A stretch of 34,941 nt of DNA from a virus, in IMG/VR virus record IMGVR_UViG_3300006071_000043, positions 1 through 34,941 of that record; one strand, given 5' to 3'. The translations under genes were made by a program, and so were the position numbers. The notes under the pieces are model-generated. The model ran no database searches, was not told the DNA's origin, and was given only the letters and a program-made list of their open reading frames with translations. Shown piece after piece: positions 3,992 through 28,375 of the stretch (positions are counted from its first letter, which is position 1; every line of letters begins with the position of its first letter).

Positions 3992-4801
3992 ATGGCTACA
4001 AGTACAAAAAACGTAATCGTTGGTGCAGCATCTCTATTCGTGTCTGTTGGTAACAGCTCAAATAACACAGGTCGCCCAACAACATATCAATCAGATCTTA
4101 CAACCCTTTTGCCAACAAACACATCAGCACGTTCAGGACTTTTGAATCCTAATAACGGATATCGTGAAGTTGGATACACAAACACAGGTCTTGAAGTTTC
4201 TTATGAACCAACATACGGTGAAGTAATGGTTGATCAGCTTTTGGACGCAGCTCGTATTTTCAAGCAAACACTTAAAGTTTTGTTGAAGACCGAACTTACA
4301 GAAGCAACTCTTGAGAACCTTCAGTTCTCATGGGGTCAAATGGATTCATACTATGTTGCAAACTCAACTGGCTCAGTTGTAAACGTTCCAGCAATTCTTA
4401 ATAATGATTCTAACGTTAACAGCACTCCAGATACTCCAGCAGCAACATTAAACATTGCAGCAGGTGCTTTGGGAGATGCTCCAGTAGAGCGTGTGCTTAT
4501 TGCAGTTGGACAAGCTCCAGCACAAATTGGTACATCAAAGGCTTTCAATGATCCAGCATCTAACGGCGGTGCTACACCAGTCGTTTCAGTAGGAACAGGT
4601 TCTGTTACTACAGTTGCTCGTCAGAAAGAGCGTGTCTACGTTGCACGTCGTGTTGTTTCAATTGATACAACAATGCATGCTTTGAAGCGTGATGCAGCAA
4701 CAGTGTTCCCAGTGAACTTCCGTTGCTTGCCTGATTCTGATCCAGCATACGCTGGTGCAGAATATGGTGTTGTTATTGATCGTGTCTACGGCACATTCTA
4801 A
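3992..4801 (+). CDS. Major tail (tube) protein
   Basis: 269 aa, ribosome site AAGGTGGTGA 6-7 bases upstream. Monomer of the tail tube. It opens with a low-complexity STKNVIVGAASLFVSVG strand, has a segment GYREVGYTNTGLEVSYEPTYGEVMVDQ which is the common 'G..T.GG.....' first sheet of actinophage tube proteins, a helix VDQLLDAARIFKQTL, an Ala/Pro/Thr-rich insertion (about 150-180) and a C-terminal sheet ending in VFPVNFRCLPDSD and a short strand. Like the capsid gene it uses CGT/CGC for Arg and TTC for Phe, marking it as one of the most abundant products. It is insulated by its own promoter (3915) and terminator (4833). Confidence 0.82.
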   Translation: MATSTKNVIVGAASLFVSVGNSSNNTGRPTTYQSDLTTLLPTNTSARSGLLNPNNGYREVGYTNTGLEVSYEPTYGEVMVDQLLDAARIFKQTLKVLLKTELTEATLENLQFSWGQMDSYYVANSTGSVVNVPAILNNDSNVNSTPDTPAATLNIAAGALGDAPVERVLIAVGQAPAQIGTSKAFNDPASNGGATPVVSVGTGSVTTVARQKERVYVARRVVSIDTTMHALKRDAATVFPVNFRCLPDSDPAYAGAEYGVVIDRVYGTF

Positions 4802-17831: not shown

Positions 17832-18719
17832 ATGCTAAAAGGAACATATGTATTTAAACAGGGCGGGGTAGAGGTAGGTCGTTCTGAAAACATTATTACT
17901 ACAAATGGTAAGACAGCCATACTCCAGTATCTTTCAGGTGCACTTTCAGAATGGGCAGCATCAATTGCTGTAGGTACAATTAATACTACACCAACAGTAA
18001 ATGATCTAACTCTTGCTTATGAAGTTGCAAGAAGTGCAGTGACATTAAAATCATTTCAAGTTGGTTCCCCAAATCTTATTGTAGTTAAAGGAACATTAGC
18101 TGCATCAGTAGCTGCAAACATATATGAAGTTGGTGTTTTTCCAGTAACTACAGCAAATATATTTGGCACAAGAGATCAATTAATTATTGATGATTTCTCA
18201 GGTATATCAAATTGGAAGGGTACTTACACAACAAATCAATATGCTGCTCAAAACAGCATATCACCAAGAATCGGTACATACAGTGTAAATATACCAGCAG
18301 CTACTACAATAAGTAATTCAAATTTTTATCTTAATCTTTCATCTTATTCACAACTTGATAGCCTAAATATATTGGCTAATGTGCCAAGTGGAAGTTCTGG
18401 GACTTTAAATGTAGTACTTACAGATGTGAGTTCAAATACAGCAATAGTTTCCTATACATTTAATGGTGCGACAACTAACGGATATCAGATACTATCTGGC
18501 AAATTGCCATCAAATATATCAACATTAGGAACTATTACTTCAGTTTCTATACAAACAGTTGGAGTATCATCTTCAATTACTGTTGATGCTATTAAAGTTT
18601 CAGTTTTAGGCGAAATTACAAATAGTGCGGGAATTGTTAGTAGATCAGTTTTAACAACACCTATTGCTAAAATATACGGAGTTCCGCTGGATATAGAATA
18701 TTATCTCCAGTTAAGTTAG
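17832..18719 (+). CDS. Minor tail / fibre protein
   Basis: 295 aa, AAGGAG 4-5 bases upstream of ATG. The N-terminal 120 residues have a pattern widespread in phage tail proteins: 'ITTNGKTAILQYLSGA', then an alanine/glycine strand 'AASIAVGTI', then 'PTVNDLTLAYEVARSAV', which I know from tail proteins of unknown fine function. The rest (about 125-275) is a beta sandwich (DDFSGISNWKG, YSVNIPAATTISNSNFYLNLS, IDAIKVSVLG-like exit) of the carbohydrate-binding-module type. The C-terminus (LTTPIAKIYGVPLDIEYYLQLS) returns to the N-terminal type fold. Packed 8 bases from both neighbours. Confidence 0.68.
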   Translation: MLKGTYVFKQGGVEVGRSENIITTNGKTAILQYLSGALSEWAASIAVGTINTTPTVNDLTLAYEVARSAVTLKSFQVGSPNLIVVKGTLAASVAANIYEVGVFPVTTANIFGTRDQLIIDDFSGISNWKGTYTTNQYAAQNSISPRIGTYSVNIPAATTISNSNFYLNLSSYSQLDSLNILANVPSGSSGTLNVVLTDVSSNTAIVSYTFNGATTNGYQILSGKLPSNISTLGTITSVSIQTVGVSSSITVDAIKVSVLGEITNSAGIVSRSVLTTPIAKIYGVPLDIEYYLQLS

Positions 18720-18727
18720 GATAAAAT

Positions 18728-19729
18728 ATGGCAACAGCACAATGGAGTCCAGGTTCTACTGTTCAAACTTCTTTAACTCAAAGTGGTTTGACGCCAGGTA
18801 GTTCATATGTGCTGCTTGTAAGAGCATATAAAAACAATTCGGACGGGACTAGAAGCTATTCTGATTATGCTTCAATACCATATACAGACTCTGGTGTAGC
18901 ACCTAGCGGCTTAAATCCATTAGCAACTAATAATGGAACAGATATACTTTTAAATGGTGGTTCAATATTTGCACAAAGTGTATCAAACCCATTTCCATCT
19001 AATATTGGTAAATTTAATGTTGTAACGGGTAGCACATCGGGCACAGGATTAATATTAAATAGTTCAGGAATAGCAGCATTTAATAATGGCACTAAAGAGT
19101 TTTACATAGATGCGTCACGTGGAAAAGCATATTTTGCTGGCACATTAGTTGCAGCTTCAGGAACTTTTTCTGGTTCTTTATCAGCAGCTTCAGGAACGTT
19201 TACAGGCAACTTATCGGGTGCTGGGGGTACTTTTTCAGGAACAATGAGTGCTGGAACTATAATATCTCCAATTTTTAGTACAAATAATAATACGGCAGCA
19301 GGCATAACTAATAATAGTTCTCCAAGATTTTATATAAGTTATGTCGAAGTTCCTTCAAATTGGGAATCAACGGCCGCAGGTGTACAAATCACTATGGATC
19401 CAGGGGACACATCAAGGTACGATACAGTTGGAGGTATCGAGCTTGTACGTGATGCTATATATCAAAGTTTTGTAACAATGTGGGCACCATATAGTAATTC
19501 TTATAAGCAGGGCGCAGCAAGAATAACTTTACAATCAGCAGCAGGAGCTGGCAGTGCAGCAATAAGTATGCAAGGAGCCGTTATAGTGATTGGTTCGGTT
19601 GCAACAACTGCAGCAAATACTAGTCCAACAACAATAATGGATTTAAGAAGAATAATGGTGCAAACTGGATCTTTATCAAATTATCCAGCCTCAAGCTATA
19701 GTGCAGGCGATATCCTGTTAATGTACTAG
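18728..19729 (+). CDS. Tail fibre protein with GTFSG repeats
   Basis: 333 aa; TAGGAT ribosome site. The first 55 residues look like the second half of an Fn3 domain (SGLTPGSSYVLLVRAYKNNSDG), beginning abruptly. Then comes the sequence ILLNGGSIFAQSVSN and a IDASRGKAYFAGTL segment, as in fibre proteins whose shaft is built from short tandem units; three 11-aa copies (ASGTFSGSLSA type) lie at residues 143-175. The C-terminal 150 residues form a probable trimeric tip domain (PSNWESTAAGVQITMDPGD, then Ala/Gly-rich strands, PTTIMDLRRIMVQTG and a Tyr/Ser-rich end). The half Fn3 at the start hints at a split from a larger ancestral fibre. The next gene begins 7 bases on. Confidence 0.72.
   Translation: MATAQWSPGSTVQTSLTQSGLTPGSSYVLLVRAYKNNSDGTRSYSDYASIPYTDSGVAPSGLNPLATNNGTDILLNGGSIFAQSVSNPFPSNIGKFNVVTGSTSGTGLILNSSGIAAFNNGTKEFYIDASRGKAYFAGTLVAASGTFSGSLSAASGTFTGNLSGAGGTFSGTMSAGTIISPIFSTNNNTAAGITNNSSPRFYISYVEVPSNWESTAAGVQITMDPGDTSRYDTVGGIELVRDAIYQSFVTMWAPYSNSYKQGAARITLQSAAGAGSAAISMQGAVIVIGSVATTAANTSPTTIMDLRRIMVQTGSLSNYPASSYSAGDILLMY
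19154..19252 (+). repeat. Three 33-bp tandem repeats (11-aa fibre shaft units)
   Basis: Units start at 19154, 19187 and 19220 and encode ASGTFSGSLSA, ASGTFTGNLSG and AGGTFSGTMSA; a partial unit (AGTLVA) precedes them. This is a typical shaft repeat of phage fibres and a site where copy number can change by recombination. Confidence 0.85.
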
Positions 19730-19736
19730 GGCAAAA

Positions 19737-20606
19737 ATGGATATAAGAATAAATTTAGACGGATCAAATTGGTCTCCATCAATAAAAAATATTTATTCTA
19801 ATTCAGGTTCATCTTGGACCCCTATAAAAACTGGTTGGGTTAACATAGGTGGTTCTAGTTGGCAACAATTTTATGGTTCTACTACAACTACTACAACTAC
19901 AACAACTACAACCCCTCCCTCAAATACATATTATTATGCATATTCTGATTGTGATCAGAATGGAAATTATGCACCATCACCAACAAATGGTGGCACTGTA
20001 ACAACTATACCTACAGGTTATTCTGCAGACACATTAAAAACAAGATATAACGCAGTTAGTGGAATTACAACTTATGAATATTACAGCTCAATTAGCAGTA
20101 CAGATGCATTAAGACATGTTATTAATGCAAATTGTATAACTTTAAACGCTACTGGTGCAACGGGCTCAACAGATGGAACTTTTACTATTTCTTGGACAAT
20201 AAGTACTGGAAGTTTAGTTGATTCTTATCGTTTAATAGTTTCAGGCGCAAATTCTGGCAATTTATCACCAGTTTATGATTTAAATCTTATATCAAATACA
20301 ACTACTTCAGAATCCTACACTGGAGGAAATGCAGGTGCAACTTATTCATTTACCTTGTATGCCTATGACTCTGCTTCAAATATAATAAAAACTGCAACTG
20401 GGTCTGTAGTAGCAGGCACTACCTCAAGCGGCGGGGGAGGAGGCGGGGGAGGTGGCACACCAAGCACAACTTCAACTTCAACTACACCAAGCACAACTTC
20501 AAGCTCAACCAGTACTTCTTCTGGAGGATGTGTTTATGTTTCATATGCCCCTGGCTGTTATTACGGAGGAATTTATTGCAATGGCGTATTTAGTACTTGT
20601 ATATAG
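19737..20606 (+). CDS. Secreted-fibre-like protein with Thr, Gly and Cys-rich segments
   Basis: 289 aa, AGGG upstream of ATG. Order of parts: residues 1-47, a small Trp-rich domain (DGSNWSPSIKNIYSN, GWVNIGGSSWQQFYG) common at the ends of phage tail proteins; 49-59, eleven Thr in a row followed by PP; 60-140, a Tyr-rich domain with YYYAYSDCDQNG; 141-225, an Fn3-like domain (FTISWTISTGSLVDSYRLIVSG); 232-240, nine Gly; 241-262, Ser/Thr linker; 263-289, a short tip with four Cys (GGCVYVSYAPGC, then YCNGVFSTC). The arrangement suggests a spacer carrying a disulfide-stabilised or metal-binding knob. Function in adsorption is inferred from position only. Confidence 0.68.
   Translation: MDIRINLDGSNWSPSIKNIYSNSGSSWTPIKTGWVNIGGSSWQQFYGSTTTTTTTTTTTPPSNTYYYAYSDCDQNGNYAPSPTNGGTVTTIPTGYSADTLKTRYNAVSGITTYEYYSSISSTDALRHVINANCITLNATGATGSTDGTFTISWTISTGSLVDSYRLIVSGANSGNLSPVYDLNLISNTTTSESYTGGNAGATYSFTLYAYDSASNIIKTATGSVVAGTTSSGGGGGGGGGTPSTTSTSTTPSTTSSSTSTSSGGCVYVSYAPGCYYGGIYCNGVFSTCI
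19881..19913 (+). repeat. ACA/ACT triplet tract (Thr11)
   Basis: Eleven Thr codons alternating ACT and ACA then ACC, inside the tail gene at 19737. Low-complexity tract, likely a flexible linker and prone to length change by slippage. Confidence 0.85.
20430..20516 (+). repeat. Gly9 tract followed by 27-bp Ser/Thr repeat
   Basis: Nine Gly codons (20430-20456) in a G-rich run that contains two GCGGG pentamers, then ACACCAAGCACAACTTCA repeated at 20457 and 20484 with a 27-base period, coding for a Thr/Pro/Ser linker. Likely a flexible spacer with variable length. Confidence 0.75.
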
Positions 20607-20648: not shown

Positions 20649-20924
20649 ATGGATCCGCAGTATTTTAATTTTAATATTAATGTTGAAGGGGAATTTGCTT
20701 TCACTTGGAGAGTAAATAAAACTGAAGAATTAGATCTTTTTAATGTTTTAATGAATAATCCTATCGTTGTTGTTCAAAGTTCAGATGAGCAATTAACTAT
20801 TTTTAATTATTTAATTAATAACGAAATCAAGTACACCCAGTCTATACCAAACAAAACAGATTTTGGTAAAATGATGATAGCAGCTTTATCTAGTAATCCT
20901 AATTTCGTACTAGTTACTAATTAA
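20649..20924 (+). CDS. Small protein of unknown function
   Basis: 91 aa with a good AAAAGGAG site. Starts MDPQYFNFNINVEGEFAFTWRV, an antiparallel strand pair, then two helices with acidic and hydrophobic residues (ELDLFNVLMNNPIVVVQ, TIFNYLINNEIKYTQS). I do not recognise a family. No signal peptide or membrane segment. It shares its promoter with the glycosyltransferase 14 bases downstream, so it may act in the same step, but nothing in the sequence says how. Confidence 0.6.
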   Translation: MDPQYFNFNINVEGEFAFTWRVNKTEELDLFNVLMNNPIVVVQSSDEQLTIFNYLINNEIKYTQSIPNKTDFGKMMIAALSSNPNFVLVTN

Positions 20925-20938
20925 TAGAAAGAAAAAAT

Positions 20939-22147
20939 TTGGAAGAACAAAGCAAAAGTCCGTGGCAAATATGGAAAGAAAGTTTAAAAAATAAAGAACC
21001 ACAGTTTTGGGATGCATTATCAGGCAATGCAGATAAAGCAAGTGAAGAACTTGCTGATTCCAGATATGAAATTTGTAAGTCTTGCCCAGAGTTTATTGGA
21101 TTAACCAAACAGTGTAAAAAATGTGGTTGTTTTATGAATGTAAAGACAAAGTTAAAACATGCTGATTGCCCTATACATAAATGGGATATTGAAAAAATAT
21201 TGGTTAGTGTGGTTAATTATTGTGATCCAGAATTTTATGAAACTATAAAATCTTTATGGGACAACGCAAGTAATAAAGACCGTTTAATATTTTCTATAGT
21301 TTCTCAAGATATAGAAAAGCATAATTTTGATTTTATTCCTACAAACCAACTAATATATCGTTATTTTGACATGTCAAAATGGGTAGGTGGAATTTGTGCT
21401 GCAAGAAATTTGGCAGTAGATGTAAACGTAGAATATGAATATTTTATACAATTTGATTCACATACAATAGCAACCGAGGGCTGGGATTCAAAATCCATTA
21501 GATTGTATAGAAGTCTGGGTGATCAAGATAAGTATATAGTTTCTTCAGGCACTCCTTCATATGTAAGAAACCAGGAAGGACACATAGAAACAGGTATGGG
21601 TGATATTTGGGGTAATAGGGCGGTTCCTTCAGATCATATTGTGCCAGGATTTTTCTTCCCATATTATGCTGCTATGCAAGAAAAAGAAAAAGTAGAAGGA
21701 TTTTGGATCACATGTTTATTTTTAATAGCACCATATGAATGGGTTAAAGAGGTCGGGATATCAAAAGATTCTTCTTATAATACAGAAGAATTTAATCTAT
21801 CACTTAGGTCACATGCTAAAGGGTGGAAAATATTTAATAAAGGTCATAGAGTTGTTTTTCATCAATGGCACGATCAAAATATAGCAATCGAAACTAGAAG
21901 AAATAAGAGACCTTGGGCTGATAAATTTACTGAAGAATACTGGAAACATGCAGAAAAAGCTACAAATTTTACAGGCAGATTGATTGCGGGCCTAGAAGAT
22001 GTTCCTTTAGATAAAGTTAAATCTTTCTTTAAATTAGCAAATATAAATGAAAAATATTGCGAAAACCCTGATAACTATTATAATATATTAGATCAAACAA
22101 AGATAGATAATAAACATATAGGAATGCCTCCAAGATTTCCAAAATAA
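20939..22147 (+). CDS. Zinc-ribbon plus GlcNAc-type glycosyltransferase
   Basis: 402 aa; TTG start (first in-frame ATG is about 70 residues in, so TTG is favoured although the ribosome site is only AGAAAGA). Residues about 45-82 hold a cysteine-rich module: CKSC, CKKCGC and CPIHKW, a zinc-ribbon pattern I have seen ahead of phage tail-region enzymes. From about 85 the protein follows the GlcNAc glycosyltransferase family (PF11397 type): opening LVSVVNYCDPEFYETIKSLW, then FSIVSQD, a GICAARNLAVD segment, and FIQFDSHTIATEGWDSKSI, where D-S-H replaces the DxD metal motif as is normal for that family. It would transfer a sugar, perhaps GlcNAc, onto a virion protein or the host surface. Located in the tail-fibre cluster, so modification of tail proteins is a reasonable guess. 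Confidence 0.78.
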   Translation: MEEQSKSPWQIWKESLKNKEPQFWDALSGNADKASEELADSRYEICKSCPEFIGLTKQCKKCGCFMNVKTKLKHADCPIHKWDIEKILVSVVNYCDPEFYETIKSLWDNASNKDRLIFSIVSQDIEKHNFDFIPTNQLIYRYFDMSKWVGGICAARNLAVDVNVEYEYFIQFDSHTIATEGWDSKSIRLYRSLGDQDKYIVSSGTPSYVRNQEGHIETGMGDIWGNRAVPSDHIVPGFFFPYYAAMQEKEKVEGFWITCLFLIAPYEWVKEVGISKDSSYNTEEFNLSLRSHAKGWKIFNKGHRVVFHQWHDQNIAIETRRNKRPWADKFTEEYWKHAEKATNFTGRLIAGLEDVPLDKVKSFFKLANINEKYCENPDNYYNILDQTKIDNKHIGMPPRFPK

Positions 22148-22156
22148 TGCTATAAT
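22148..22156 (+). promoter_or_regulatory. Extended -10 promoter TGCTATAAT
   Basis: Perfect TATAAT (22151-22156) with TG upstream, overlapping the end of the glycosyltransferase region; transcription start near 22163 and an AAGGGA site before ATG 22180. Confidence 0.72.
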
Positions 22157-22179
22157 GGAATATCAAACAAGGGAAACAA

Positions 22180-22362
22180 ATGGATAAAGCTGAATTAATA
22201 ATTACGGCTCTACAACAACGTATAGGTGAGCTTGCTTCAGGTTATGAAGGACAAATTGCTTTGTTAAGAGCAGAATTTACACAACAGTCAGACCAAATAG
22301 TAGAAATGCAGAAAACAATTGATGAATATTCAAAGCTTCTTGAAGAAAAAGAAGACTGTTAA
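22180..22362 (+). CDS. Small coiled-coil protein
   Basis: 60 aa, almost entirely helical with heptad spacing: MDKAELIITALQQRIGEL, then YEGQIALLRAEFTQQSD and EMQKTIDEYSKLLEEK. Small proteins beginning with the same 'AELIITALQQRIGEL' pattern recur near tail-fibre and lysis genes of actinophages; their role is unsettled. No membrane segment, so it is not itself a holin, but it might be an accessory. The 3' end overlaps the next gene by 41 bases. Confidence 0.65.
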   Translation: MDKAELIITALQQRIGELASGYEGQIALLRAEFTQQSDQIVEMQKTIDEYSKLLEEKEDC

Positions 22363-22720
22363 AATCTCCGCCCCACTAGTACCGAGCGGTTTGATTGCTC
22401 ATACTGCTAAAGGCTATTTTTATGTAAAGGGAAATAAAAAGTTTAAATTTATTTCTGATAGAGTAGTCCAGTCATGGAATCTTCCAGTTGTAGATGTCAA
22501 TGATGAAATATTAAATAAGTTCATGTCTATGGGCACTTTGGGGTTTAGAGATGGGACTTTGATAAAAGACATATCTGATGGTAAAATATACTTAATAAGT
22601 GATTCAAAGCGTCGTCACATTATAGATCCCGCCGTCCTAAATTGGCTAGATACAGAAATGATTCGGGCGGGGCAAAAAGAAGTTTTGATACACGAAGAAG
22701 GAGAACCCCTTGGCAGTTAA
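22322..22720 (+). CDS. Protein with cell-wall-associated repeat motif
   Basis: 132 aa if ATG 22322 is used; TTG at 22319 and TTG at 22340 are alternatives and none has a convincing ribosome site, so the start is uncertain. Most of the body after about residue 25 reads AHTAKGYFYVKGNKKFKFIS and LGFRDGTLIKDISDGKIYLISDSKRRHI. This 'RDGTLIK...YLI.DGKRRHI..P.V...L' pattern is common in repeats of secreted cell-surface proteins of Gram-positive bacteria. It may bind the cell envelope. It overlaps the genes on both sides (41 and 11 bases). In the region 22319-22362 both frames are open. Confidence 0.6.
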   Translation: MNIQSFLKKKKTVKISAPLVPSGLIAHTAKGYFYVKGNKKFKFISDRVVQSWNLPVVDVNDEILNKFMSMGTLGFRDGTLIKDISDGKIYLISDSKRRHIIDPAVLNWLDTEMIRAGQKEVLIHEEGEPLGS

Positions 22721-23156
22721 TACAACAGTAGATAATGCAGTAATTGACTATACGGCAATTGCAAGTCTTTTGCAGACAGTAAAATCACACGACGACTTGT
22801 TCGTACAGTTTTCGTCGGGTTCATTGGGAAATATTGCAGTAAATGAATCTGCAAATGGAGATGCATCACAAGTTAATGCAACAGCCATCCCAGCATCTAA
22901 TTTCCTTGTTCAGGGAGTTCAAGCACAAGGCACATTATCTGGTGGTAGTTGTTCTTTCACAGTTTATTGGGGAGAGGCATTCGGTATTGCTCCAATTGTT
23001 ACAGCAACACCTCAAATTCAAAATTCAAATTCAAGAGCTACGGCATTGATTAGTTCTGTTGATACTTCAAAAGCAACAATAGTTGTTTATGATAGTGGTT
23101 CAACGGCGGGAGCAGCAGTTCTTCTTAACGTACTGGCACTAGGAACAAGATCTTAA
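22710..23156 (+). CDS. H-type-lectin-like tail protein
   Basis: 148 aa, TTG start after a GAAGGAG site. The first 55 residues are Asn/Val-rich and may be a spacer (VDNAVIDYTAIASLLQTV). Residues about 70-148 follow the pattern of H-type lectin / phage fibre tip domains: 'VQGTLSGGSCSFTVYWGEAFGIAPIVTATPQ', then 'RATALISSVDTSKATIVVYDSGSTAG' and a final aromatic-poor 'LLNVLALGTRS' strand. Such domains bind sugars and trimerise at fibre ends. That would make this a receptor-binding candidate on the tail. The call rests on the strand pattern and is tentative. Confidence 0.55.
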   Translation: MAVNTTVDNAVIDYTAIASLLQTVKSHDDLFVQFSSGSLGNIAVNESANGDASQVNATAIPASNFLVQGVQAQGTLSGGSCSFTVYWGEAFGIAPIVTATPQIQNSNSRATALISSVDTSKATIVVYDSGSTAGAAVLLNVLALGTRS

Positions 23157-23159
23157 AAT

Positions 23160-23420
23160 ATGTACGAACCTATCAAGTTTTGGACAAAACGAGATAAGAA
23201 GGTTAGTAAAGAAGGTTATGTTTTAATTAAAGTTCCAGAACATCCTAAAAATTTTAAAGGCTGGTATTATGAACACCGCCTTATAATAGAAAAACAATTA
23301 AATAGAATTATAGAAGATTGGGAAACTATTCATCATATCAATAATGATAAGACTGATAATAGATTAATTAATCTTTTCTTATGTTCAAGATTAGAACATA
23401 ATAAAGCACACGTTGCTTGA
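23160..23420 (+). CDS. HNH endonuclease (free-standing)
   Basis: 86 aa. Classic phage HNH nuclease: GYVLIKVPEHPKN, WYYEHRLIIEKQLNR, then HHINNDKTDNRLINLFL with the catalytic His pair and Asn, ending NKAH. Start ATG 23160 follows the previous stop by 3 bases with no clear ribosome site and no own promoter seen. Such enzymes often behave as mobile genes that home into intergenic sites and nick DNA. Its stop codon lies inside the -35 of the next promoter (23417-23446), so it is inserted very tightly between a tail-region gene and the metallophosphoesterase unit. Confidence 0.9.
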   Translation: MYEPIKFWTKRDKKVSKEGYVLIKVPEHPKNFKGWYYEHRLIIEKQLNRIIEDWETIHHINNDKTDNRLINLFLCSRLEHNKAHVA

Positions 23421-23446
23421 CAAAAACTAATATAACACGCTACAAT
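23417..23446 (+). promoter_or_regulatory. Sigma-70-type promoter TTGACA-18-TACAAT
   Basis: TTGACA at 23417-23422 and TACAAT at 23441-23446 with an 18-base spacer; no upstream TG. Transcription would start near 23453, then AAAGGATT precedes ATG 23472. The best full -35/-10 pair in the window; it shares bases with the HNH stop codon. Confidence 0.75.
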
Positions 23447-23471
23447 TAACTAAACCTAGACAAAGGATTAT

Positions 23472-24227
23472 ATGAGTAATGATTTAAAATGGATGATGGT
23501 CTCAGATGTCCACTTCCCCCGCCACGATGAACGCAAGGTAGAACTATTTCTTAAAGTCATGCAGTGGTGGCAACCAGATGCAGTTGATCTGCTCGGAGAC
23601 ATTGATGATGCTGATTCCACAAGCCGTTGGGCTGATGGACTGCCAGACGAAGGTGTATCTATTATGGACGGCGGGGTTACAGGAACTCGTCAGTTCTTAG
23701 CAGACATTAGAGCAATTGTTCCAGATGCAGAATGTCATTTCCATGATGGTAATCATGGCTGGACAAGACATGGAGACTATATTGCAAAGAAAGCTCCAAC
23801 ACTACTAGATTTCGTTACACCAGATTCACTCTATGAATATAATAAGCATGGCTTTAATTGGCATCATTACAATGAACCGCCAGTTAAGCGTTTTGGTGAT
23901 ATGTATGGTCATCATGGCGAGTCCATTTCTAAACACTCTGGAGAGTCTGTTCGTAACGATGTCAACAACTGGGGGATATCTCTAGTTCGTGGACACTCTC
24001 ACCGAATGGGTGCATATTATCAGACATACAATCTAAGTGGTCAAGAACTACGAGGATATGAAATTGGTCATCTATGCGATGAGAACAAAATGGATTATTC
24101 AATCCAAAAGAATTGGCAGGCAGGATTTGCAGTGGCACATGTTGTCAATGATTATCCACATATGCAGCTAATTCAAATTACACGAGATTATACTTGTGTA
24201 GTAGACGGTAAGATCTTTACCGCATAA
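23472..24227 (+). CDS. Calcineurin-like metallophosphoesterase
   Basis: 251 aa, AAAGGATT upstream. Metal-binding motifs of the superfamily are all present: VSDVHFP (D-x-H, about 8-12), DLLGDIDD (GDxxD, about 38-42), DGNHGW (GNH, about 92-96), YGHHGES (about 137) and VRGHSHRMG (GHxH, about 169). These coordinate two metals and hydrolyse phosphoester bonds. The substrate cannot be read: phosphatase, nucleotide hydrolase and DNA-end nuclease members all share these motifs. Many actinophages carry a similar short gene near lysis or replication genes. CGT/CGC Arg codons are frequent, suggesting good expression. It starts the transcription unit that carries the holin-like gene. Confidence 0.85.
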   Translation: MSNDLKWMMVSDVHFPRHDERKVELFLKVMQWWQPDAVDLLGDIDDADSTSRWADGLPDEGVSIMDGGVTGTRQFLADIRAIVPDAECHFHDGNHGWTRHGDYIAKKAPTLLDFVTPDSLYEYNKHGFNWHHYNEPPVKRFGDMYGHHGESISKHSGESVRNDVNNWGISLVRGHSHRMGAYYQTYNLSGQELRGYEIGHLCDENKMDYSIQKNWQAGFAVAHVVNDYPHMQLIQITRDYTCVVDGKIFTA

Positions 24228-24245
24228 CCTAAATAGGAGAAATAA

Positions 24246-24440
24246 ATGAACGCAAAGACAAAGGCTCTATTTGAGCATTATGTTATCTCAACAATCGTTG
24301 CAGCAGTAGCAATTTGGCAGGGTGGAAATCATCACCTCAAGCAAGTTGCATGGGCAGCAGTAGTTGGTGTATTTGGTCCAGTATTGAAGAGTGCTTACGA
24401 GCATGCTTCAAAGGCTTCTTCAACACCAGCAGCAAAGTAA
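24246..24440 (+). CDS. Holin-like small membrane protein
   Basis: 64 aa with a strong TAGGAG site. Two hydrophobic stretches, YVISTIVAAVAIW (about 12-24) and AWAAVVGVFGPVL (about 35-47), joined by a short HHLKQ turn, then a polar tail (EHASKASSTPAAK). The size, charge distribution and N-out/C-out hairpin suit a class II holin that opens the membrane at the end of infection. No endolysin is seen beside it, so other membrane roles are possible. Located after the metallophosphoesterase and before small early-type genes. Confidence 0.6.
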   Translation: MNAKTKALFEHYVISTIVAAVAIWQGGNHHLKQVAWAAVVGVFGPVLKSAYEHASKASSTPAAK

Positions 24441-24448
24441 ATAATAGA

Positions 24449-24454
24449 TACAAT
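24449..24454 (+). promoter_or_regulatory. -10 element TACAAT of a leaderless gene
   Basis: TACAAT followed after exactly six bases by ATG 24461, so transcription should start on the A of that ATG. No TG extension or -35 is obvious. Supported mainly by matching spacing at 34872/34884. Confidence 0.5.
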
Positions 24455-24460
24455 TAAATA

Positions 24461-24646
24461 ATGATGAATTGTAAAAAATGCACAGGACGAGTATTCGTTG
24501 ACAGAGTTTATTCCCAGAACCTGCGGGTTGAATTGTTCTGTGTTATGTGTGGGAAACGATGGATGGTAAAAAGAGATAATAGGTTTGGTGCATGGGTAGC
24601 AAAACGAGAAGAGATTCTGCAACACGGTTACGGTATTTCTATCTAA
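24461..24646 (+). CDS. Small zinc-ribbon protein, probably leaderless
   Basis: 61 aa with CKKC (4-7) and CVMC (27-30), a four-cysteine zinc ribbon, followed by basic residues (GKRWMVKRD). Such small ribbons in phages bind nucleic acid or proteins; partner unknown. No ribosome site lies upstream; the ATG coincides with the predicted transcription start, and a second ATG follows at once. The 3' end overlaps the next gene by 55 bases in another frame, which is unusual and means one of the two starts may differ. Confidence 0.65.
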   Translation: MMNCKKCTGRVFVDRVYSQNLRVELFCVMCGKRWMVKRDNRFGAWVAKREEILQHGYGISI

Positions 24647-25107
24647 ACGGTAAGTTACATAAAGTTTTGCGACGTTCAAGAGCGGAAGATCTCTTGATTG
24701 CATGGGACTATGAACTCGGTAAGCGTGTTGCTTATAGTTTGGCTGATGTCAATAAAAATAAACAGTACGCTTACCCCATCTCAGAAGTTGTAAAAATTTT
24801 GGGTAAGCATGAAGATACAATTAAATGGCATATGTATAAGGGAGATATAAAATTTCCTCAGCAGTGCTATTCTCTTAATGGTAACAAGACTCCAGGAAAA
24901 TATTTTTGGAGTGAAGATGATATTAGATCAATGCACGATTTCTTTAAAACAGTTCATCGTGGCAGACCGAGAAAAGATGGCGGGATTACGCCAGGAGATA
25001 TGCCTAGTAGAGCAGAGGTAGAAGCTATGATGAAACAAGAAAATATTTTATATGTAAAGAATAACGATGGGGAGTTTGTCCCAGTTTGGAAAGCACCAGA
25101 ATGGTAA
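24592..25107 (+). CDS. HTH DNA-binding protein with AT-hook-like tail
   Basis: 171 aa. ATG 24592 has a weak GGTTTGG site and overlaps the previous gene by 55 bases. Residues about 1-55 are a basic region with strands (RYFYLNGKLHKVLRRSRAEDLL). Residues about 60-115 fit a MerR/excisionase-type winged helix (PISEVVKILGKHEDTIKWHMYKG then KYFWSEDDIRSMHDFF). About residue 124 the run RGRPRKDGG is an AT-hook core, a minor-groove binding element. The C-terminal part is acidic. Likely a DNA-binding regulator or architectural protein acting ahead of replication genes. The helix-turn-helix call is from pattern only. Confidence 0.72.
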   Translation: MGSKTRRDSATRLRYFYLNGKLHKVLRRSRAEDLLIAWDYELGKRVAYSLADVNKNKQYAYPISEVVKILGKHEDTIKWHMYKGDIKFPQQCYSLNGNKTPGKYFWSEDDIRSMHDFFKTVHRGRPRKDGGITPGDMPSRAEVEAMMKQENILYVKNNDGEFVPVWKAPEW

Positions 25108-25334
25108 ATAAGTCTGATAAAGATGCCAAGCATGTCTTGCATCAAGCACTTCGTGTGTTGGAATTCACAATGGAATTAGCACAATCTAAGGGTGACATTG
25201 ATGCTATGATAGGTATATCAGATCGTTTGATGATGTTGTATCAACATTTATCAGAAGGTAATGCTAAAAAGTTTAAGCCAGGATTTGCTTTTGCAGCAGA
25301 CAAAGAAGAAAGAGTAGAAGATGAATCAGACTAA
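25101..25334 (+). CDS. Small helical protein of unknown function
   Basis: 77 aa from ATG 25101, which overlaps the previous stop (25105-25107) and has GGAAAG upstream; TTG 25086 is an alternative start. The protein is helical: HVLHQALRVLEFTMELAQSKGD, then IGISDRLMMLYQHLSEG, with an acidic C-terminal end. Tail positions such as GFAFAADKEE are seen in other actinophage proteins near replication genes, with no assigned function. Shares a translational chain with the following genes. Confidence 0.6.
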   Translation: MVNKSDKDAKHVLHQALRVLEFTMELAQSKGDIDAMIGISDRLMMLYQHLSEGNAKKFKPGFAFAADKEERVEDESD

Positions 25335-25536
25335 TGTTAAGGTTGAACTTCAATTCACCCGCAACTTGGGTAACTATGAAAGTCTAAAGATTTCTATTGG
25401 TGTGGAAGATTTTAAGCGGGACCATGAGACAGTTGACGAAGCCACAAATAGAGTGTATACTTTCGTTGAAGGTAAAGTCATGGAGAAGGTCCATGAAATT
25501 GAAGATGAATTAAAATCTAACAAAGGTAAGAAATGA
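25321..25536 (+). CDS. Small conserved-type protein of unknown function
   Basis: 71 aa, ATG within the previous gene's last codons and 14-base overlap. Strand-rich start (VKVELQFTRNLGNYESLKISIGVED) followed by a helix of charged residues (TVDEATNRVYTFVEGKVMEKVHEIEDELK). The pattern 'NYESLKI.IGVED..R' with a following long helix occurs in small actinophage proteins placed before replicative helicases. No motif for activity. It ends in an ATGA overlap with the next gene. Confidence 0.62.
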   Translation: MNQTNVKVELQFTRNLGNYESLKISIGVEDFKRDHETVDEATNRVYTFVEGKVMEKVHEIEDELKSNKGKK

Positions 25537-25862
25537 CAAAAGATGAAGCAAAACTGGCTTACGGTTTAGTTTCGCTATATTGTGTTCTATACAAAGAGAC
25601 TTACAAAAAGCCTGTTGTTGTGAACAAGTATAGAGAAAAGTGGGCTATGCAGGATGTGATTGAGAGTGTAGGGTATGACAGGGCTAAGCAGCTTCTTGAA
25701 TATTATTTCACCACAAAGAGTAATCACAGCATATCTTGGTTCTTTTATAACTTTGAGAAGTTAGATTTGGCACTACAGCAAAAAGAAGAAGATAAGACCC
25801 GTCGGGAATTAATCAGAGCTAAGACAAAATCTATGGTTGAAGAAAGGAACAATGAACACTGA
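25533..25862 (+). CDS. Unknown protein before DnaB-like helicase
   Basis: 109 aa, ATGA overlap with the gene before. All-helical, rich in aromatic and charged residues (AKLAYGLVSLYCVLYKETYKKP, VIESVGYDRAKQLLEYYFTTK, ISWFFYNFEKLDLALQQKEED). Small helical proteins immediately upstream of a phage helicase sometimes act as loaders or adaptors; whether this one does cannot be told. Its end overlaps the helicase start by 11 bases, so the two are probably made together. Confidence 0.6.
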   Translation: MTKDEAKLAYGLVSLYCVLYKETYKKPVVVNKYREKWAMQDVIESVGYDRAKQLLEYYFTTKSNHSISWFFYNFEKLDLALQQKEEDKTRRELIRAKTKSMVEERNNEH

Positions 25863-27078
25863 ATCAGCAGTCATATCATCAGTATGTGCCAATAAGGATA
25901 TCTCTACAGTACTTGCTGAAAATATTGATGAAGTGTTTACTTCACACAGAGATGTCTGGGAAGGTTTAAAGTCTTATTATTTAAAGTTTAAGTCTGTTCC
26001 TGATATTTCTGTTCTTACTGAAAGATTCAAAGATTTTGAACCCGCCAAAGTCAAGGGCGAGACAGCTTATTATCTTGACCAATTAAAGAATGAATATCTT
26101 GCCAGCCGAGTTCGCAATCTTTTGCTAACCTCTGGTGCAAGTTTAAAGACAGAGGCATCTGCTAGAGTAATCGCAGAGATGCAATCCGAGTTAACTAATC
26201 TTGGTAGACTAACAGCCAATGTTAGAGACGTAGATTTAACTGATTACAAGTCAGCAGAAAAACATTTTGAAGCAGTTCGTACACGCTCTGATGCTATGGG
26301 CGGTAGCCCAGGTATCATGACTGGATTTAAAGCAATTGATTATGCTTATCCTACAGGAATGGCTCCAGGACACCTTATCGTCATGATTGGTTGGCCAGGT
26401 AAGGGTAAGACGTGGTTCTCCTCTTATTTAGCTTGCAAGGCTTGGGAACAGGGCTTTAAGCCAATGATCATATCCCTTGAAATGACTCCAGAGAATATGC
26501 GTGACCGTATCTACACAATGTTGGGTTCAGGACTTTTTAAGTCTTCAGATTTTGCCCGAGGCAGTGTTGATATGGAAGCTTTTGATGATTGGGGCTCTAA
26601 AAAGTTTTTGGACAAGAACGGTTTTATTCTTGTATCAAATGAAGGGGCGGGACAAGTAACTCCCACCACAGTACAAGCAAAGATTGACCAACATAAACCA
26701 GATTTAGTCATCTTGGATTATCACCAATTGTTTGCTGATTCAAATAATTCTAAAGCACCTACAGAGAGAAACATGAATATCTCTCGTGAATTTAAGATGC
26801 TTGCCATGAGAAATAATATTCCAGTCATTGATATTACTGCTGCAACTGCAGAAGAAACTTCTGACCACGATTCCCCGCCAATGCTTAACCAGGTAGCTTG
26901 GTCTAAGGCGATTGAATATGATGCTGATATGGCTATCGCTATTCATAAGAATCCTGATAGCAATATTATGGAAATTGTAAGTCGTAAGAATCGTCACGGA
27001 ACTGAATTTGGCATGTACCTAGACTGGGATTTGAACAGGGGTATTGTCAAAGAAGTTTACGACATTCCTATATCTTAG
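25852..27078 (+). CDS. DnaB-like replicative helicase
   Basis: 408 aa from ATG 25852 (GAAAGGA upstream; a TTG 15 bases before is less likely). N-terminal helical domain to about 140 (VISSVCANKDISTVLAEN, then helices), then a RecA-type ATPase: GWPGKGKT Walker A at about 180-187, ISLEMTPENMRDR (switch region, about 205-220), VILDYHQLF Walker B at about 285-293, and a NVSREFK/ITAATAEETSD region at about 310-335 corresponding to the H4 or sensor area. It unwinds DNA ahead of the replicase. It overlaps the preceding small gene. The motif order and the spacing to the primase fit SF4/DnaB family phage helicases. Confidence 0.9.
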   Translation: MNTESAVISSVCANKDISTVLAENIDEVFTSHRDVWEGLKSYYLKFKSVPDISVLTERFKDFEPAKVKGETAYYLDQLKNEYLASRVRNLLLTSGASLKTEASARVIAEMQSELTNLGRLTANVRDVDLTDYKSAEKHFEAVRTRSDAMGGSPGIMTGFKAIDYAYPTGMAPGHLIVMIGWPGKGKTWFSSYLACKAWEQGFKPMIISLEMTPENMRDRIYTMLGSGLFKSSDFARGSVDMEAFDDWGSKKFLDKNGFILVSNEGAGQVTPTTVQAKIDQHKPDLVILDYHQLFADSNNSKAPTERNMNISREFKMLAMRNNIPVIDITAATAEETSDHDSPPMLNQVAWSKAIEYDADMAIAIHKNPDSNIMEIVSRKNRHGTEFGMYLDWDLNRGIVKEVYDIPIS

Positions 27079-27100
27079 TTTATGTAATCATCGTCTAACT

Positions 27101-27109
27101 TGGTATAAT
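27101..27109 (+). promoter_or_regulatory. Extended -10 promoter TGGTATAAT
   Basis: Perfect TATAAT (27104-27109) with TG upstream in the 52-base gap after the helicase. Transcription start near 27116, then AGGAAAG overlaps that site and ATG 27131 follows. Confidence 0.72.
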
Positions 27110-27130
27110 TATCAGGAAAGATTGGTGATC

Positions 27131-27412
27131 ATGTACCCACGCAAAATACATGACTTTTGGATGAACGGAACCATCAAAGATGATTCCAAATTCCAAAGCT
27201 CAAGGGAGAACTATGAAAGACTTTTGGTCCAGCAGATGCGAGACAAAGGTTATGTTCCTGTCCTTGACATGCAGCCTCAGTTTAATGTAAAATATAACGA
27301 AGGCAAAGATCACTACACTTTCAACCTTGTAATGTATGGCATATACATTGGTAAAGCCAAAGCGTTACAATACGAAGGGTTCTCTGGTCAGAGTTTAATA
27401 CCTAAAGGATAA
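27131..27412 (+). CDS. Small unknown protein between helicase and primase
   Basis: 93 aa. ATG 27131 is preferred over an upstream in-frame start because the promoter at 27101 and an AGGAAAG/GGTGAT site sit directly before it. Reads MYPRKIHDFWMNGTIKDDS, a helical LLVQQMRDKGYVP and a beta end (FNLVMYGIYIGKAKALQYE). No family recognised. Position in the replication block and the dedicated promoter suggest an early function. The primase follows 3 bases after the stop. Confidence 0.6.
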   Translation: MYPRKIHDFWMNGTIKDDSKFQSSRENYERLLVQQMRDKGYVPVLDMQPQFNVKYNEGKDHYTFNLVMYGIYIGKAKALQYEGFSGQSLIPKG

Positions 27413-27415
27413 CAA

Positions 27416-28375
27416 ATGTCAGATGCATATACTAAAGCGGACCTCCGCTCTATTTTGCAATCTTGTGGCATTCAAATTATTTCGCAATCAGGGCAAGACT
27501 TTCTTTGCCTATGCCCATTTCACCATAACACAGATTCTCCAGCTTTTGCAGTAAGTTATTCAAAAGGCTTGTATGTTTGCTATAACCAAAGCTGTAATTC
27601 GGCGGGGACTGTATTAGATCTAGTCATGAAGCTTACTAATAGAAATAATTATGAAGCTATGAGATATATATCTACAAATAAACTTTCAGATGCAGAAATA
27701 CTTGAGGAAGAGCTTAAAGAGCTTTTAGACGAAAAACCAGAGTTTGAAGAATTCCCGCAATCTACCCTAGACAAATTGTTTAATGATTTGTGCAATTCAA
27801 CTGTAGCTCAACAGTATTTTAAGTCTAGAAACATAACATTTGAAGCAATGGATTATTTTAAATTGGGTTATTCAGAAAATCAACGCATGGTTACAGTTCC
27901 TCTTCATAGCCCCGACGGTGTCCCTGTGGGCATTATTGGGCGTTCTATTGAAGGAAAATCATTTAAGAATAGCAATAACCTACCAAGAAACAAGACTATG
28001 TTTAATCTACATAGAGCAAAGCGTGAAGGTGGAACTATTATAGTAGTTGAATCTAGCTTTGATGTTATCCGCTTGTGGCAAGCAGGTTTTCCAAATGCCG
28101 TAGCAACACTAGGCGGTAGCATATCAGACATTAACATTAATCATTTAAACAGATATGCTTCAACCGTTATATTGATGACAGATAATGACGGGGCGGGTAG
28201 AATGTTAGGCAAGACTATCGCTGGTAAATTAAAGAATAAAAATGTATTATGGGCTAAATATGACCATGATGTAATCTATCCTCGTCTTGCAAAAGATGTG
28301 GGAGATATGACAGATGAAGAAATAAAGCAGTGTATAAAGAATGCTATACCGCATTTTGAATATGCAAATATGTAG
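27416..28375 (+). CDS. DnaG-type primase
   Basis: 319 aa, AAAGGATAACAA site. CHC2-type zinc domain at about 30-70: CLCPFHHNTDSPAF, CYNQSCNSAGTVLDL (Cys/His set spaced as in DnaG). Linker to about 130, then a helical core and a TOPRIM domain: IIVVESSFDVIRLWQAGF (about 207-224, conserved Glu), ATLGGS, and LMTDNDGAGRMLG (about 251-263, DxD). It lacks the DnaB-binding C-terminal domain of cellular DnaG, which is normal for phage primases. It would make RNA primers for the DnaE-type replicase encoded downstream. Confidence 0.88.
   Translation: MSDAYTKADLRSILQSCGIQIISQSGQDFLCLCPFHHNTDSPAFAVSYSKGLYVCYNQSCNSAGTVLDLVMKLTNRNNYEAMRYISTNKLSDAEILEEELKELLDEKPEFEEFPQSTLDKLFNDLCNSTVAQQYFKSRNITFEAMDYFKLGYSENQRMVTVPLHSPDGVPVGIIGRSIEGKSFKNSNNLPRNKTMFNLHRAKREGGTIIVVESSFDVIRLWQAGFPNAVATLGGSISDININHLNRYASTVILMTDNDGAGRMLGKTIAGKLKNKNVLWAKYDHDVIYPRLAKDVGDMTDEEIKQCIKNAIPHFEYANM

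Follow-up and report, generated by a model that had tools for sequence, protein, structure and literature searches.

The gene at positions 20939-22147 (+ strand) of the window, which is the whole 34,941-nt stretch of IMG/VR virus record IMGVR_UViG_3300006071_000043, encodes a 402-aa protein in which a DUF6171 cysteine ribbon is fused to a GT60-type glycosyltransferase domain. The gene probably represents, in fused form, a fibre-modification cassette through which the phage decorates its own fibre with mucin-type O-glycans; the ribbon would serve to deliver the transferase to the fibre. This reading draws on the domains, their predicted fold, the order of the genes, the repeated fusion of ribbon and transferase, and trends in fibre composition.

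The ORF has a TTG start and contains the motifs CKSC, CKKCGC and CPIHKW. The sequence-only reading had placed a cysteine cluster before a GlcNAc-transferase-like domain, and both parts are found by profile searches. PF19668 (DUF6171) matches residues 33-82 with 27.9 bits for the whole protein and 33.1 bits for the ribbon alone (cut-off 27), and PF11397 matches residues 151-312 with 56.2 bits (cut-off 21); the PHROG assignments are phrog_13558 and the glycosyltransferase phrog_24687. The ribbon (residues 33-82; 21035-21184, + strand) contains C46, C49, C59, C62, C64 and C77 and terminates with W82. All of these residues are invariant in an alignment of 58 ribbons, together with R42, M66, K69 and P78, and all 58 match PF19668. 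There is no linker at the joint; W82 is followed by the GT60-type domain (21185-22144, + strand) at the position of the start codon of stand-alone relatives. A second assembly is 100% identical to the window over 20844-28127 (7,284 bases) with the fused ORF intact, which rules out an error of one assembly as its origin. Comparison of a ribbon profile with solved structures gave only weak matches to the RING-like domain of NSE1 (best E 0.17), thus no significant solved relative, and the ribbon model found no match of note in Foldseek. A pattern scan of bacterial and archaeal genome contigs via short conserved peptides, which was not exhaustive, found no relatives of either the ribbon or the transferase.

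The FDSH motif anticipated from the sequence is present in the transferase domain, where D173, S174 and H175 (21455-21463, + strand) are invariant in 10/10 close relatives. We take a DxH motif to be diagnostic of GT60 (PF11397), and DSH is presumably the metal/nucleotide-sugar motif, as in the polypeptide GalNAc-transferases. The domain has also kept H308, H311 and both Glu residues of a TEE motif. An AlphaFold2 model calculated from 21 sequences has a mean pLDDT of 76.5, with most of the transferase core between 85 and 97 and a poorly predicted ribbon. The predicted fold is GT-A-like and related to polypeptide HexNAc-transferases, those nearest to it being the initiators of mucin-type glycosylation. 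Among the 50 best Foldseek matches in the PDB, 49 are polypeptide GalNAc-transferases and one is B4GALNT1. With VIA-align 2 these enzymes fill ranks 1-29 (Z from 20.1 to 17.4), followed by SpsA (Z = 16.5); by the rule of that program the lowest of them are tied with SpsA, while the best lie 3.6 above it. The proximity of the fold to polypeptide GalNAc-transferases points to a protein acceptor. A profile of the transferase, built from an alignment that included one stray single-codon row, matched nothing among solved structures; the alignment behind the AlphaFold2 model lacked this row. The domain is 45-48% identical to nine stand-alone phage glycosyltransferases and is the most divergent member of this close branch, for which no cultured relatives were found; it matched three phage records, all of jumbo phages, and the transferase type of locus L112 matched two phage records.

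The proposed acceptor is the product of the ORF at 19737-20606 (+ strand), a fibre-like protein of 289 aa that is rich in threonine (18.3%) and serine (16.6%) and contains 3.8% proline. Its structural role as a fibre is suggested by its place in the gene order, which is that of the Thr/Pro-rich fibres of related phages. The Thr11 tract and Ser/Thr linker originally remarked upon are both in this ORF. The tract (19881-19913, + strand) is followed by two prolines and is a candidate acceptor stretch. It is a diverged short tandem repeat, and its mixture of five ACT, five ACA and one ACC codons rules out a pure microsatellite. The Ser/Thr-rich linker near the C-terminus (20457-20525, + strand) is another possible acceptor stretch, directly preceded by a poly-Gly repeat (20430-20456). 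Upstream of the fibre lie two further tail- or fibre-like ORFs of 295 and 333 aa (17832-19729, + strand), with matches to the tail protein phrog_9983 and, below cut-off, weakly to FN3. Between the fibre and the fused gene is a small ORF of 91 aa (20649-20924, + strand) that jackhmmer joins to small ORFs located between fibre and ribbon in related cassettes (L085, L097, L103-L106 and L065; 52 matches in total). This membership indicates that the window belongs to the cassette arrangement described below, here with ribbon and transferase fused and no oxygenase detected.

The fused gene lies in the late tail cluster, and the replication genes start ~3.7 kb downstream. The DNA polymerases of the window and of Streptomyces phage BillNye share 57% identity, and the order of tape measure, minor tail, large tail protein, HNH, phosphoesterase, helicase, primase, SSB and polymerase genes is BillNye-like, some of the names having been taken from the BillNye annotation. 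The polymerase and gene order point to an actinobacterium as the likely host and show that the window covers only a part of a larger genome. In the window the interval from the large tail protein gene to the HNH gene contains additional fibre-like genes and the ribbon-transferase gene; for this interval the BillNye annotation lists three short hypothetical genes and no fibre or glycosyltransferase set. The region immediately downstream (22180-24440) has small ORFs, an HNH-like gene, a metallophosphoesterase (phrog_221) and a holin-like ORF, an order that BillNye shares.

In most relatives ribbon and transferase are separate genes. A search with three of the transferases gave 39 IMG/VR loci, and in the close relatives (45-48% identity) the ribbon gene lies 0.8-1.3 kb upstream of the transferase gene, with one or two oxygenase genes in between and a protein with long Thr-Pro tracts before the ribbon. 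A second search used the conserved gene before the fibre as anchor. In the best 80 of its 476 loci the order is fibre, often a small ORF, the ribbon, and then oxygenases and/or GT60 and/or epimerases and others, followed by a gene on the opposite strand. Of these 80, 70 are closed cassettes, containing a ribbon in 69, an oxygenase in 59 and GT60 in 28. A third search, with transferases of the Thr-rich type, gave 79 loci with the same order. Many have a gene of ~334 aa for a radical SAM/SPASM protein between ribbon and GT60 (for example L080:3269-4270); these cassettes are Thr-rich and Pro-poor, and the radical SAM/SPASM protein might also modify the fibre. The ribbon is upstream of or fused to GT60 in 29/35 and 66/70 informative loci, near-copies included. 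Individual loci contain further genes. The fused ribbon-transferase of L063 is followed by a member of the HtrL_YibB family (L063:10374-11159; PF09612, 160 bits), and one oxygenase cassette includes a GT61-like glycosyltransferase with a C-terminal cupin-like part (L079:11022-12635). The fibre before GT60 at L016:4556-5914 seemingly has a Hint-like C-terminal end (PF05203, below cut-off), in a locus with neither ribbon nor oxygenase, and at L050:1-12519 a protein of 2,903 aa (28% Thr, 15% Pro) is encoded ahead of two GT60 genes that have no ribbon.

A tree was built from 61 GT60 representatives (80% identity), of which 48 have a ribbon near or fused. In 45 of these the ribbon is nearby, and the remaining 13 of the 61 have none close by. 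Well-supported branches require at least two separate events for the ribbon-transferase fusions, one for the window and another for L063 and L101; the program flags long branches that join close to the fusion rows.

The oxygenases of the cassettes are of two types. Those of type B are firmly assigned from their sequences, with PF13640 matches of 42-63 bits (cut-off 27) in all seven scanned (L115, L085, L126, L275, L112, L082 and L037). Type A, which corresponds to phrog_2954, is weakly assigned; PF13532 matches two of three at 18.4 bits, below its cut-off, with no match for L045, and a type-A profile matched nothing among solved structures. The oxygenase of L030 matched no cultured phage record. 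Both types may act as prolyl hydroxylases. Phage 2OG-Fe(II) oxygenases are described as structurally like human prolyl hydroxylase in the Phold paper (PMC12774648), and a statement in a cyanophage paper (PMC9602691) is that these enzymes have not been specifically investigated in viruses.

Fibre make-up roughly tracks the enzyme set, with exceptions. In 53 of 66 ribbon clusters with enough neighbours, no other ORF of at least 155 aa in the locus exceeds the gene directly ahead of the ribbon in Thr plus Pro content (10.8 expected), with an automatic choice of fibre that took the wrong gene in some loci (e.g. L064). The analysis was repeated with fibres placed by the anchor gene, where 149 closed cassettes gave 36 ribbon clusters and 38 cluster-by-enzyme representatives. 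Among these 38, Thr runs of seven or more are found in 9/24 fibres with GT60 and 0/14 without (p 0.014), and fibre proline is higher in oxygenase-positive than in oxygenase-negative cassettes (p 0.026), both p values being a guide only because the clusters and groups are not independent by descent. Median proline is 13.5% with oxygenase and GT60 (n = 13), 19.4% with oxygenase only (n = 14) and 9.9% with GT60 only (n = 11). Dropping the fused loci gives p 0.0025, a value not used since that choice was made after the data had been seen. The fibre of the window, with its Thr11 tract, has the lowest proline content of the 38, and no hydroxylase HMM matched within the 34.9 kb of the window, which are a part of the genome. 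The exceptions to the proline trend run both ways: L063 and L101 have 24.5% and 22.1% proline with a fused ribbon-transferase and no detected hydroxylase, and L112, L271, L281 and L210 have an oxygenase and 6-7% proline.

In the reverse direction, starting from at least 120 loci per sequence pattern, a cassette gene (ribbon, GT60 or oxygenase) lies within 2.5 kb downstream of 5/65 informative Thr11-Pro ORFs, 7/63 (Pro-Thr)6 ORFs and 1/49 Gly11 control ORFs. Neither pattern differs significantly from the control (p 0.23 for Thr11-Pro and 0.08 for (Pro-Thr)6), and the Thr tract was dropped as a specific signpost of the cassette. The earlier suggestion that the phage O-glycosylates its own fibres is sustained in part. 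The GT-A-like fold agrees with it, as does the Thr/Pro-rich fibre directly before ribbon and GT60 and/or hydroxylase in many phages; the Thr11 tract taken by itself is weak evidence, as cassette genes so seldom follow Thr11-Pro ORFs closely.

The ribbon is also found beyond the cassette. Ten cultured phages that carry it have no PF11397 gene, and five of them match PF13640 with E ≤ 0.001, in one case below cut-off. In the ten regions the ribbon lies beside a tail or large structural gene in four (S-CBS2, S-CRES3, PSS2 and S-LBS1), beside oxygenases in two (S-H35 and Sf-FS3) and 1.2 kb before a glycosyltransferase in one (Sf-CH8); the other three (Yut2, RHph_TM2_3B and V45v66, the last a record that carries no annotation) have no annotated fibre or modifying neighbour. 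In S-H35 (L004:563-4219) an unannotated ribbon ORF (4037-4219) comes directly after five consecutive 2OG-Fe(II) oxygenase genes, with virion and fibre genes downstream. Two DUF6171-type ribbon proteins, S-CBS2 gp034 (L006:4749-5168) and that of PSS2 (L014:3635-4192), are annotated as 'RNA polymerase-like' and 'DNA-directed RNAP', labels that are probably misannotations. GT60 action does not depend on the ribbon, as the jumbo phages XacN1 and RAS14 and a clade of eight GT60s in the 61-representative tree have the enzyme and no ribbon. Nor is the ribbon a GT60 subunit as such, given the cultured ribbon phages that lack GT60 and its varied neighbours. Its role may be a wider one, for fibres or for modifying enzymes. 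Our best guess, from its occurrence in both transferase-only and hydroxylase-only cassettes and its fusion to GT60 at least twice, is that it is a targeting module. We tentatively extend this to a proposal that could well be wrong, in which the DUF6171 ribbon would be a common adaptor recruiting exchangeable enzymes (prolyl-hydroxylase-like oxygenases, GT60 and other glycosyltransferases) to the fibre encoded just before it, giving mucin-like (Thr) or hydroxyproline-rich (Pro) glycosylated fibres whose composition co-evolves with the enzyme set. It is somewhat unlikely that the ribbon instead contributes to fibre structure or assembly, or is a phage protein of general use, and only hitch-hikes with the enzymes. 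Such a role would fit the four ribbons that neighbour tail or large structural genes where there is no GT60, and the three that lie among small genes or in a record lacking annotation, but the two independent in-frame fusions to GT60 and the position of the ribbon directly before the enzymes in 69/70 closed cassettes speak against it.

For fibre glycosylation we infer the substrate, the donor sugar, the role and binding of the ribbon and the benefit to the phage as follows. During late expression the GT60-type domain would transfer HexNAc to Thr and Ser residues of the adjacent Thr/Ser-rich fibre. The donor would most likely be host UDP-GlcNAc, and the sugar α-GlcNAc. The Thr11 and Ser/Thr linkers would thereby become mucin-like, stiff and shielded, while the ribbon would tether the transferase to the fibre or to the complex that assembles it. 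Relatives with oxygenases may hydroxylate prolines within their Thr-Pro tracts, hydroxyproline then providing a further glycan site.

The transferase could act elsewhere. Phage glycosyltransferases have been proposed to modify the host surface (PMC10202952, PMC12619734), and epimerases and a GT61-like gene are present in some cassettes; here the target would be teichoic acid, polysaccharide or another glycan, the effect would be against superinfection, and adjacency to the fibre would be a host-range island effect. This is improbable, as the nearest fold modifies polypeptides, fibre Thr/Pro content follows the enzymes, and the prolyl-hydroxylase-like genes in the same cassette suit a protein substrate. 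Quite improbable too is a target in another virion or host protein, or in phage DNA, with the Thr-rich fibre a bystander. Most phage ORFs with Thr11-Pro or (Pro-Thr)6 have no cassette nearby, and the known mycobacteriophage glycans are on capsid and tail tube (PMC12619734), but the fibre lies directly before the cassette and co-varies with it, and the transferase gene is in the tail cluster with the replication genes some way downstream. That the enzyme is inactive or decaying and kept only as a fold is very improbable: its divergence within the close branch would allow this, but the DSH motif, the two TEE glutamates and both histidines are kept, and two assemblies agree in an unbroken ORF.

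Fibre glycosylation by this cassette would have parallels in known systems. GT60 enzymes are polypeptide α-GlcNAc-transferases, such as Skp1 Gnt1 of Dictyostelium and Toxoplasma and the initiator of T. cruzi mucins, and are related to GalNAc-transferases (PMC6939170, PMC8724618). The transferase of the window resembles them in its PF11397 match, its GT-A-like fold and its proximity to Thr-rich sequence, as in protist mucins; it differs in being phage-encoded, fused to a ribbon (which precedes it in the relatives) and located beside a fibre gene, with a sugar and an acceptor that are as yet putative. Gnt1 requires hydroxyproline (PMC6939170) and pairs with the prolyl hydroxylase PhyA (PMC6939170, PMC8724618), just as the phage relatives pair with prolyl-hydroxylase-like enzymes. 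Hydroxylase and GT60 act in series in the Skp1 pathway and are encoded side by side in the relatives, whereas the window has no detected hydroxylase. The GT27 polypeptide GalNAc-transferases have the closest solved folds (Z up to 20.1) but only 11-13% identity, and in place of their lectin domain the window protein has a ribbon, at the other end. Mycobacteriophages (Che8 and others; Freeman 2023, as cited in PMC11256854 and PMC12619734) glycosylate their own structural proteins with phage glycosyltransferases, the C-termini of capsid and tail-tube proteins being modified, in contrast to the mucin-like fibre linkers, GT60 and ribbon proposed here, with hydroxylases in the relatives. Glycans on phage virion proteins have already been reported; a mucin-type GT60/oxygenase/ribbon cassette at fibre genes is probably new. 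A literature search covering few subscription papers, for the ribbon and for hydroxylase and glycosyltransferase with phage fibres, gave no account of such a cassette.

If the cassette acts as proposed, aquatic phages, probably of actinobacterial hosts, would carry self-contained mucin- or hydroxyproline-type O-glycosylation of their receptor-facing fibres, a chemistry best known from eukaryotes. The sequence of such a fibre alone would not predict host range, since the exposed surface may be sugar. DUF6171 (PF19668, phrog_13558), a family without assigned function that is here tied to fibre-modification enzymes, would gain its first function. If the ribbon is indeed an adaptor, a role, and one that can be tested, would follow for part of the numerous 2OG-Fe(II) oxygenases of phages.
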